From the NCBI GenBank assembly GCA_944326085.1, contig CALVCL010000005.1:1-64000 (forward strand): DNA of 64,000 bases, given 5' to 3'. The stretch comes from an uncultured Tidjanibacter sp. (GTDB taxonomy: Bacteria; Bacteroidota; Bacteroidia; Bacteroidales; Rikenellaceae). The translations under genes and the position numbers were made by a program. The notes under the pieces were generated by a model that saw only the letters and a program-made list of their open reading frames with translations, was not told the DNA's origin and searched no databases. This document shows positions 20,262 to 23,428 of the stretch, one piece after another; the stretch's first letter is position 1; each line of letters starts with the position of its first letter.

Positions 20262-20780
20262 ATGGAAGAGAGAGGATACATACGCATATATACAGGAAAC
20301 GGACAGGGTAAAACTACTGCAGCATTCGGTCTTGCCGTCCGAGCCCTTGAAGCAGGACGCAGCGTATTCATAGGGCAGTTCGTAAAAAGCATGAAGTACA
20401 ATGAAACGGGACTTACCAACCACTACCCCGCATTGACAATAAAGCAATACGGATGCAGCTGTTTTATCAACCGTTCCCCCGCATCGGAAGATGCCGAAGC
20501 CGCCGCCCACGGCTGGGAAGAGTGCCGCAGGTTTCTGAAGGAGGGCACATTCGACATGGTGGTTCTCGACGAACTTAACATAGCCCTGTTTTACGGACTT
20601 CTATCCAGCGAGGACATACTTGCCGGACTACGCGAACGCGACAGCCGCGTCGAGGTTGTCATTACAGGCCGCTATGCACCGCAGAAACTTATTGACGCCG
20701 CCGACCTCGTGACAGAGATGCGCGAGGTAACCCACTACTACAGCCGCGGAGTACTATCGCGCTTCGGGTTTGACCGATAG
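20262..20780 (+). CDS. cobO: Cob(I)yrinic acid a,c-diamide adenosyltransferase
   Basis: 172 residues of the CobA/CobO/BtuR family. It adds the 5'-deoxyadenosyl group to corrinoid cobalt to give the active B12 coenzyme. The P-loop GNGQGKTT is at 12-19, and the central strand FDMVVLDELNIAL holds the Walker B-like segment. The length is normal. No other cobalamin genes and no cobalamin riboswitch are seen nearby; it lies 14 bp after priA and is probably co-transcribed with it. The gene ends 10 bp from the convergent BAHD gene. Confidence 0.92.
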   Translation: MEERGYIRIYTGNGQGKTTAAFGLAVRALEAGRSVFIGQFVKSMKYNETGLTNHYPALTIKQYGCSCFINRSPASEDAEAAAHGWEECRRFLKEGTFDMVVLDELNIALFYGLLSSEDILAGLRERDSRVEVVITGRYAPQKLIDAADLVTEMREVTHYYSRGVLSRFGFDR

Positions 20781-20790
20781 GACTTTCGGT

Positions 20791-22095
20791 TCAAAACTCC
20801 ACACCATATCCGCGCAACACCTCGGCGAACATTTTCCGTGCTCCCGCGGCATCCATTATCTTACCGAGACTGCCCGTAAACAACACCTCTACACCGGGCC
20901 TGTCAGATGGCATGGGCCAAAACCTTATCTGGTCCGGCAGGTCGTGAGGCAGCACCGCCACAAGTTCTCCTTCGCCAAAATCGACGTTATATAGCGGAAA
21001 TTTCATAAAATCGTTGATATACAGCGTAGTGGGACGCTTCGCCGTCATTCCAGCAAGATCAAACACCAACATCGGCAACTTATAATATACGGCATTGAAA
21101 TATAAGGCAGCATACCGCGCCAACTCTTCACCGCCATTCCCGAACAATCTGGAGAGCATTACATTCTCCTTCTCCACAATATCATACAGTGTGTCGCCAG
21201 CATGAAATTCCACCATCACATTGCATACGGCATTACCGGAAAAAGCCGACGTCACACCACCCGTCCGCCCGCGCATGTCGACAGTGGTCACGAGCTGACA
21301 TTTTATGTCGTCCGCATGGTGCAATGCCATAAAACAGGCCTTTACCGTCAGGGCCGACAGCAATGTATGCATGCCGAAACTTCTGCCGTGACGTGCGGCA
21401 AAGGCGTCACGAAAACGTTCCAAAACGGCAAGCGGCAATTCCACCGACTTCGCCCTGCGCATCAATGTTCCTGTAATCCTGCCGACAACGGCATCGACAA
21501 GCTGCCCAATCCCCAAATGGCTCCATCCTGCCTGTGCAATGGTTCTCTCAACATCTGCACGAGACATTCTGCCAACCGCACCAAACAAGGTATTATCCAG
21601 CGAAGGTTTCTGCGGTCGGATACCGCGGCACAAACACCCCCAGTTATCAACCATGCCGTAAAAGGCGGCACCGTCCATCACCACATGGGCTGCCCAGACG
21701 CTTAACACCGTACCGTCAGCAAGATAGGTTACACGCACACTCAACAATGGCGCCTTACCTGCCCTCACTCTGCGCATGTTCATCCCAGCTCCGAACCTTA
21801 CCGCCGCTTTAGGCATTGCCGCAACTGCAGCAACATTCAGACGAGGTTCATCATCCACGGCAAATGATACTCCGGAATTGTCAAAACGAATACGCTTCAT
21901 GCCGTCAATACGTCCGCCAAGCTGCGGATACATATCCAATATCTGCCCCAGTCCGTCACGCAGCAACTTTTCATCGAGTTTGCCTCGGAACAGCCACGTG
22001 CCGCGTATCACCATACCGGCACATGACACATCAAGAACTGACAAACCGTACTCTCCCGACAATCCGCATTGCGCCCTTACAACAACCTTCTTCAT
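20791..22095 (-). CDS. BAHD-type acyl-CoA-dependent acyltransferase
   Basis: 434 residues. The pattern matches the BAHD transferase family (PF02458-like), which moves acyl groups from CoA thioesters to alcohols or amines and is best known from plants and fungi. Visible hallmarks in the right order and spacing: the catalytic HVVMD (HxxxD, 137-141) followed by G; VDMRGR (272-277) then SGNAV (287-291), as in the VDxRxR...GN segment; and FPLYNVDFGEGE with DFGEG at 372-376, the BAHD DFGWG motif with Trp replaced by Glu. Both halves of the pseudo-symmetric fold are present. Soluble, no signal peptide. The start at 22095 is preferred over 22125. Substrates cannot be told from context. Confidence 0.85.
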   Translation of the reverse strand: MKKVVVRAQCGLSGEYGLSVLDVSCAGMVIRGTWLFRGKLDEKLLRDGLGQILDMYPQLGGRIDGMKRIRFDNSGVSFAVDDEPRLNVAAVAAMPKAAVRFGAGMNMRRVRAGKAPLLSVRVTYLADGTVLSVWAAHVVMDGAAFYGMVDNWGCLCRGIRPQKPSLDNTLFGAVGRMSRADVERTIAQAGWSHLGIGQLVDAVVGRITGTLMRRAKSVELPLAVLERFRDAFAARHGRSFGMHTLLSALTVKACFMALHHADDIKCQLVTTVDMRGRTGGVTSAFSGNAVCNVMVEFHAGDTLYDIVEKENVMLSRLFGNGGEELARYAALYFNAVYYKLPMLVFDLAGMTAKRPTTLYINDFMKFPLYNVDFGEGELVAVLPHDLPDQIRFWPMPSDRPGVEVLFTGSLGKIMDAAGARKMFAEVLRGYGVEF

Positions 22096-22270: not shown

Positions 22271-23428
22271 ATGAAAAAATTTTTCAATTTATGCTGTGTG
22301 GCAATGGCATGCACTGCAATGATGTCATCATGCCAGAATGACGTAGAATACACCGGCCAACTTCCAACAGTGACAACAGATGCTCCCACCGAGATAACCG
22401 CAAATTCCGTATCAATTGACGTAAACGTATCGGGAGAAAACATCACCGACAGTGGTGTATGCTACTCAACCGAACAGGAGCCTACTATCGACGACATGAT
22501 AGTAAGCGAAGGCAAACACGTCGGCAAACTCACCATCACCATTACCGACCTTACCCCCGAGACAGTATATTACGTACGCGGTTATGCCACCAACCCCGTC
22601 GGTACTGCCTACAGCGAAACACAGACTTTCACTACAATAGCTATCGACGAGACCATCGAATTCTCCGACCCGATATTTGAACAGTACTGCCTTACAGAGT
22701 TCGATGCGAACAATGACGGCAAGATTTCCCTTTCGGAAGCCAAACGCGCAACCAACATAACAATCAACCAGAAAGGTATATCCTCGATTGACGAAATACA
22801 CTACTTTACCGAACTTACACAACTTGTATGCAACGACAACAATCTCACCTCAATAGATGTCAGCAAGAACGCCAAACTCACCATGCTCTACTGTCAGAAC
22901 AACAAACTGACATCGATTAACGTCAACAATTCCAAACTTGAAAACCTCAACGTAGGCAACAATCAGCTCACAACACTCGATCTCAGCGGCAGTCCACGAC
23001 TAACGACATTGAACTGCGACGACAATCAGCTCTCTACGCTTGACATCAGCAAATGTCCGGCTCTTACAGACCTTTACTGCCAGGCCAACCAACTGTCGGA
23101 ACTGAACCTGTCCCGCAATACCAAACTGACTATCCTTGTCTGCTCATCCAATCCCATGACATCACTCGACGTAACCAAGAATACAGCCTTAACGGGTATT
23201 AGCTGTTCGGCGTGCCAACTGACATCTCTCAACCTCACATACAACACGGCGCTGGAAACGCTGATATGCGACGATAACCTGTTCACCACACTTGATGTCA
23301 GCTCCGCTACAGCACTGCTCCTACTCTACTGCAATGACAACCCCCACCTCGAAACTCTTGTAATGGGAGCAGGGCAGTCCATCTCTATCCTCGACAAGGA
23401 CGACCATACGCAGATAATAACCAAATAA
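22271..23428 (+). CDS. Surface lipoprotein with leucine-rich repeats
   Basis: 385 residues with a lipoprotein signal (MKKFFNLCCVAMACTAMMSS, lipidated C21). The residues after the cysteine, QNDVE, resemble the acidic lipoprotein export signal that sends Bacteroidota lipoproteins to the cell surface. A fibronectin III-like domain (about 32-127) is followed by an EF-hand-like loop DANNDGKISLSE (145-156) and about nine 21-residue repeats (180-370) of the form LxCxxNxLTxLDVSxNxxLxx. The repeat type is like internalin-J and many Bacteroidota surface proteins. Such proteins usually bind other proteins or glycans; the ligand is unknown. It is followed by a strong terminator. Confidence 0.88.
   Translation: MKKFFNLCCVAMACTAMMSSCQNDVEYTGQLPTVTTDAPTEITANSVSIDVNVSGENITDSGVCYSTEQEPTIDDMIVSEGKHVGKLTITITDLTPETVYYVRGYATNPVGTAYSETQTFTTIAIDETIEFSDPIFEQYCLTEFDANNDGKISLSEAKRATNITINQKGISSIDEIHYFTELTQLVCNDNNLTSIDVSKNAKLTMLYCQNNKLTSINVNNSKLENLNVGNNQLTTLDLSGSPRLTTLNCDDNQLSTLDISKCPALTDLYCQANQLSELNLSRNTKLTILVCSSNPMTSLDVTKNTALTGISCSACQLTSLNLTYNTALETLICDDNLFTTLDVSSATALLLLYCNDNPHLETLVMGAGQSISILDKDDHTQIITK

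Follow-up and report, generated by a model that had tools for sequence, protein, structure and literature searches.

BAHD acyltransferases form a large family in plants and have been studied almost only there, less in fungi. The locus described here raises the question of whether a gene of a gut bacterium encodes a genuine member of this family and, if so, what a solitary bacterial copy might do. The window, the whole stretch of 64,000 nucleotides that was analysed, comes from an uncultured Tidjanibacter species of the Bacteroidales. The interval 20791..22095 holds a single complete open reading frame, on the minus strand (22095..20791), which begins with ATG and encodes 434 amino acid residues; on the plus strand, stops interrupt that frame. 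The gene belongs to the known BAHD family, whose bacterial members have received little study. A search of the open-access literature, which did not extend to subscription papers, yielded no work on a member from Bacteroidota.

Family assignment by sequence and structure

Pfam, a PDB profile search, and a structure model compared by Foldseek place the gene in the BAHD family. In Pfam, residues 5–406 of the 434 match PF02458 with 61 bits (E = 1.1e-16), the cut-off being 22.7, and all eight homologues scanned exceed the cut-off as well. The NCBIfam scan matched no model to the protein. Plant BAHD enzymes are the best matches of a single-sequence PDB search, and when a profile built from an alignment of eight bacterial homologues was used, all 28 chains found were plant or fungal BAHD-family proteins (best E 8.8e-23). 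An AlphaFold2 model, run on an eight-row alignment, has a mean pLDDT of 90.4 and a pTM of 0.90. It shows the two-lobed fold, with the catalytic motif in a loop between strand 128–136 and helix 142–156, at the interface of the lobes. The 50 best Foldseek matches in the PDB all belong to the BAHD superfamily, led by Selaginella HCT (E 1.7e-26, TM 0.76/0.79, 17% identity).

These results bear out a first-pass annotation of this DNA, which had proposed BAHD membership and had suggested a profile search against PF02458 and the condensation families, as well as comparison of a predicted structure with HCT. It had also named what would speak against membership: a best match to NRPS condensation or CAT families, or loss of the two-lobed fold. 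Both were looked for, and neither was found.

The motifs quoted in that annotation, HVVMDG, VDMRGR, SGNAV, and FPLYNVDFGEGE, are all present and in BAHD order; the strand, which it had left unstated, is the minus strand, and this holds for every motif that follows. HVVMDG, residues 137–142 (21670..21687), is the catalytic HxxxDG motif, recognised in the sequence, the model, and the homologue alignment. The PDB profile and the homologue alignment identify VDMRGR, residues 272–277 (21265..21282), as the counterpart of the plant D-x-R-x-R motif, and FSGNAV, residues 285–290 (21226..21243), as the counterpart of plant YFGNA/V. Residues H137, D141, and G142 of the first motif, R275 and R277 of the second, and G287, N288, and A289 of the third are invariant in the 10 bacterial homologues.

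The structural DFGWG motif is present only in part, as DFGEG, residues 372–376 (20968..20982), seen in the sequence and the homologue alignment; the D, F, and both G residues are kept and the Trp is replaced by Glu, just as the annotation had reported. F373 and G374 are invariant in the 10 homologues, and the Trp position is occupied by E, T, R, or G, never by W (0/10). The missing Trp is therefore usual in this subfamily and does not point to inactivity. The homologue alignment also reveals a signature of the Bacteroidales subfamily, PHDLPD...WP, residues 383–394 (20914..20949), in which P383, D385, L386, D388, W393, and P394 are invariant among the 10 homologues.

Comparison with characterised proteins places the bacterial protein as follows. 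Plant BAHDs, such as the HCTs 6dd2 and 5kjt and the triterpenoid saponin acetyltransferase AmAT7-3 (8h8i), resemble it in length, in the two-lobed fold, and in the order of HxxxDG, D-x-R-x-R, FGNA, and DFGxG. It differs from them in its low identity (~13–18%), in lacking the Trp of DFGWG and an accompanying pathway, in the P-x-DLPD...WP signature near its C-terminus, and in having Asn for the Thr of the HCT acceptor site. The fungal trichothecene acetyltransferases of the TRI101/TRI3 type (2zba) are CoA-dependent HxxxD enzymes of the same superfamily, but the profile match to them is weak (E 0.0014), and TRI-like_N remains below the cut-off. The closest relatives are nine loci in Tidjanibacter and two other Bacteroidales families whose proteins have 27–42% identity, share the motifs and the signature, and belong to the same subfamily.

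The superfamily fold and the HxxxD core are also common to NRPS condensation domains, CAT, and PapA5, so that a relative of these proteins, or of wax-ester synthases, could merely resemble a BAHD enzyme. Among Pfam families, PapA_C, like TRI-like_N, gives a sub-threshold hint (13.4 bits against a cut-off of 30). On the other hand, no condensation, CAT, or WES family is matched at E values up to 1, and the window motif has a single His (A-HVVMD), whereas condensation domains are described as having HHxxxD (PMC10619693). The gene stands alone, with no carrier-protein context, and a CAT subunit has ~220 residues compared to 434 here. Taken with the PF02458 and structure results, which refute such a relationship, this leaves the resemblance reading with a negligible probability.

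Distribution, context, and history of the gene

The first-pass annotation had also held that the family is rare in bacteria and that no pathway genes adjoin this copy. The claim of rarity is broadly right, the distribution in Bacteroidales genome surveys being patchy. The surveys were made within Bacteroidota, on partial samples that included some incomplete genomes. An intact gene occurs in 4 of 23 Tidjanibacter genomes, and one further genome, G011, has a decayed remnant (G011:C67:38211-38516) of ~100 C-terminal residues with one stop. The gene was found in none of 245 other Rikenellaceae genomes. A sample of the order (393 genomes) added convincing members only in G308 and G565, and in a sample of the phylum (395 genomes) the window genome was the sole match. 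The family of G308 (f42) has genuine members in 5 of 358 genomes and that of G565 (f4) in 1 of 8, giving six homologues in two Bacteroidales families besides Rikenellaceae. The BAHD proteins of the congeners G015 and G007 recur in ‘Candidatus Tidjanibacter faecipullorum’ and an uncultured Rikenellaceae bacterium, whose contigs were matched by the alignment query; the single-protein query matched none. Weak matches in G650, G1083, and G1140 were dropped: they either fell short of the cut-off, in a short and unrelated frame, or lay within frames of more than 2,000 residues; an AMP-binding motif in the frame of G1083 makes an NRPS likely there.

The absence of adjacent pathway genes is likewise confirmed by the neighbours, which are housekeeping or unrelated genes: YitT, PriA, CobO/BtuR, an LRR protein, a Zn-peptidase, an SDR, an FtsX-like permease, and UbiE, with MetG also nearby. 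By neighbourhood reading, the gene for the CobO/BtuR corrinoid adenosyltransferase (20262..20780, plus strand) is convergent with the BAHD gene and 10 bp from its stop. On the other side, an open reading frame for the LRR protein (22271..23428, plus strand), probably a lipoprotein to judge from a Cys near its N-terminus, is divergent. Both genes are outside the system considered here. The intergenic region between the BAHD and LRR genes, 175 bases, is AT-rich.

The position of the gene is not constant in the genus. In G004, G007, and G015, and for the remnant in G011, the BAHD gene directly follows a gene that we take to be DUF5606-like; a LuxR-type regulator gene flanks the remnant on its other side. 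In the window genome, the site after the DUF5606-like gene is empty, and the BAHD gene lies between cobO/btuR and the LRR gene. The most similar DUF5606-like proteins (77% or more) belong to the species that carry the BAHD gene or its remnant and to G001, which lacks the BAHD gene at that site. This pattern fits a single gain in a Tidjanibacter subclade, after which the gene was in places lost, decayed, or moved; independent gains are a possible alternative. Since one congener (G011) lost the gene by decay, the gene is dispensable.

The loci of the homologues differ. Among the contexts read, we found no partner gene that recurs outside Tidjanibacter and no conserved neighbourhood hinting at a substrate. 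These contexts, read by eye, include purD with a response regulator; CorA with Rnf-like genes; an alpha/beta-hydrolase with ABC genes; and a response regulator with TetR/efflux-like genes behind it. Approximately 3.3 kb from the G1085 homologue, tandem 153-residue open reading frames with the same visible sequence (L055:9886-10976) resemble an IS200/IS605-type transposase.

Where the gene is kept, the protein is functionally constrained, and relatives of the window gene show purifying selection. The dN/dS ratio is 0.15 for the closest pair, G308/G1062, and 0.23 for G007/G015; the value of 0.25 for the window gene and G004 is a weak estimate alone, with dS near saturation, so that the strongest estimates come from homologues rather than from the window gene. 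The GC content of the gene (0.52; GC3 0.55) is similar to that of its neighbours, and among homologues it tracks host GC from 0.36 to 0.66. For this reason, and because no plant protein exceeds ~18% identity, the gene is unlikely to be a contaminant or a recent arrival from a food plant; the occurrence in three Bacteroidales families and the PriA, BtuR, MetG, and UbiE flanks led us to the same rejection. In the gene tree, G565 (f4) groups with G308/G1062 (f42) with 100% support, and the other f42 members fall elsewhere. Several deep forks are weak, and thus the tree does not separate transfer from ancient loss.

Proposed activity and alternatives

We propose, with considerable confidence, that the gene encodes a functional, cytosolic, two-lobed, CoA-dependent BAHD acyltransferase that works alone, an optional gene that gut Bacteroidales have acquired, lost, and relocated; we infer its chemistry from that of characterised BAHDs. 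In these, a His acts as general base in an attack on acyl-CoA (PMC6203249, PMC10619693). By analogy, a small acceptor would be held between the two lobes, and His137 of HVVMDG would deprotonate its hydroxyl or amine. Acyl-CoA would bind through the central channel between the lobes, and the acceptor would attack the thioester, so that CoA is released and an ester or amide forms. Our best guess is that the acyl group is short or aromatic and that the acceptor is a diffusible small molecule, either the cell’s own or taken up. The first-pass annotation had offered phenolics, sterols, or an envelope compound as conceivable targets; these, too, are guesses.

A BAHD fold alone is no proof of acyl transfer, since in plants the fold also serves lyases (EPS1) and subunits of wax complexes (GL2, of the CER6-GL2 complex), and both appear among the Foldseek matches to the model. 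A lyase or a structural partner is nevertheless very unlikely here, given that HxxxDG is complete in 10 of 10 bacterial homologues and no elongase-like partner was found near the window gene. A transferase of the HCT/HQT type, which would pass hydroxycinnamoyl groups from CoA to shikimate or quinate and act on plant phenolics in the gut, is suggested by plant HCTs being the best Foldseek matches; that rank is unspecific, as no other class of BAHDs has so many solved members, and identity to HCTs is only 16–18%. The acceptor site of SmHCT consists of the Arg372 handle, Thr385, and Trp387 (PMC6203249). The PDB profile and homologue alignment, read with this paper, align the segment from R354 to N361 (21013..21036, minus strand) with HCT acceptor-site positions. 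R354 aligns with the handle; Arg is kept there in Tidjanibacter, but several homologues have F, Y, or K instead. In place of Thr stands Asn361, which does not vary among the 10 bacterial homologues, and in place of Trp stands Phe363; the acceptor-pocket residues of HCT are not retained as a set. Both the replacements and the inconstant handle argue against a shikimate/quinate transferase, which we regard as highly improbable.

A solitary optional gene could serve in detoxification or in decorating a compound of the cell. Detoxification would be a more specific version of the proposed acyltransferase: the enzyme would inactivate a xenobiotic, such as a dietary phenol or an antibiotic, by O- or N-acylation, as CAT does. 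The lone, patchy gene, found at differing loci even within one genus, is in line with this, as is the G1362 homologue, which is followed, on reading by eye, by genes for a TetR-like regulator and outer-membrane efflux-like proteins. However, efflux surroundings occur in one context only among those read, and neither a mobile element nor a resistance gene was found beside the window copy; we hold this version to be possible but doubtful. It is tempting to go further: the bacterial proteins would form a BAHD subfamily of their own, marked by the P-x-DLPD...WP signature and by a conserved acceptor pocket with its invariant Asn361, carried as a single mobile gene in gut Bacteroidales and acylating a small molecule that comes from the diet or the host. 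We consider this rather unlikely; if true, the gut microbiota would have a new way of modifying drugs or phytochemicals.

The broader acyltransferase assignment gives the subfamily a wider interest: it may modify small molecules in the gut, it offers an outgroup for the evolution of plant BAHDs, and, with its confident model, it supplies an experimentally easy and probably soluble enzyme.

Carriage by phages or plasmids was also considered and set aside. Viral contigs contained no related locus, and viral structures gave weak partial matches only; no Bacteroidales plasmid was matched. The only plasmid match was a distant Streptomyces protein (27% identity over 36% of the query), which indicates that PF02458 occurs in Actinomycetota too. 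This unannotated PF02458 protein (L045:3935-5290; 63.5 bits) is encoded on a 2.35-Mb Streptomyces linear plasmid, NZ_CP109481.1, where a transposase-like open reading frame adjoins it.
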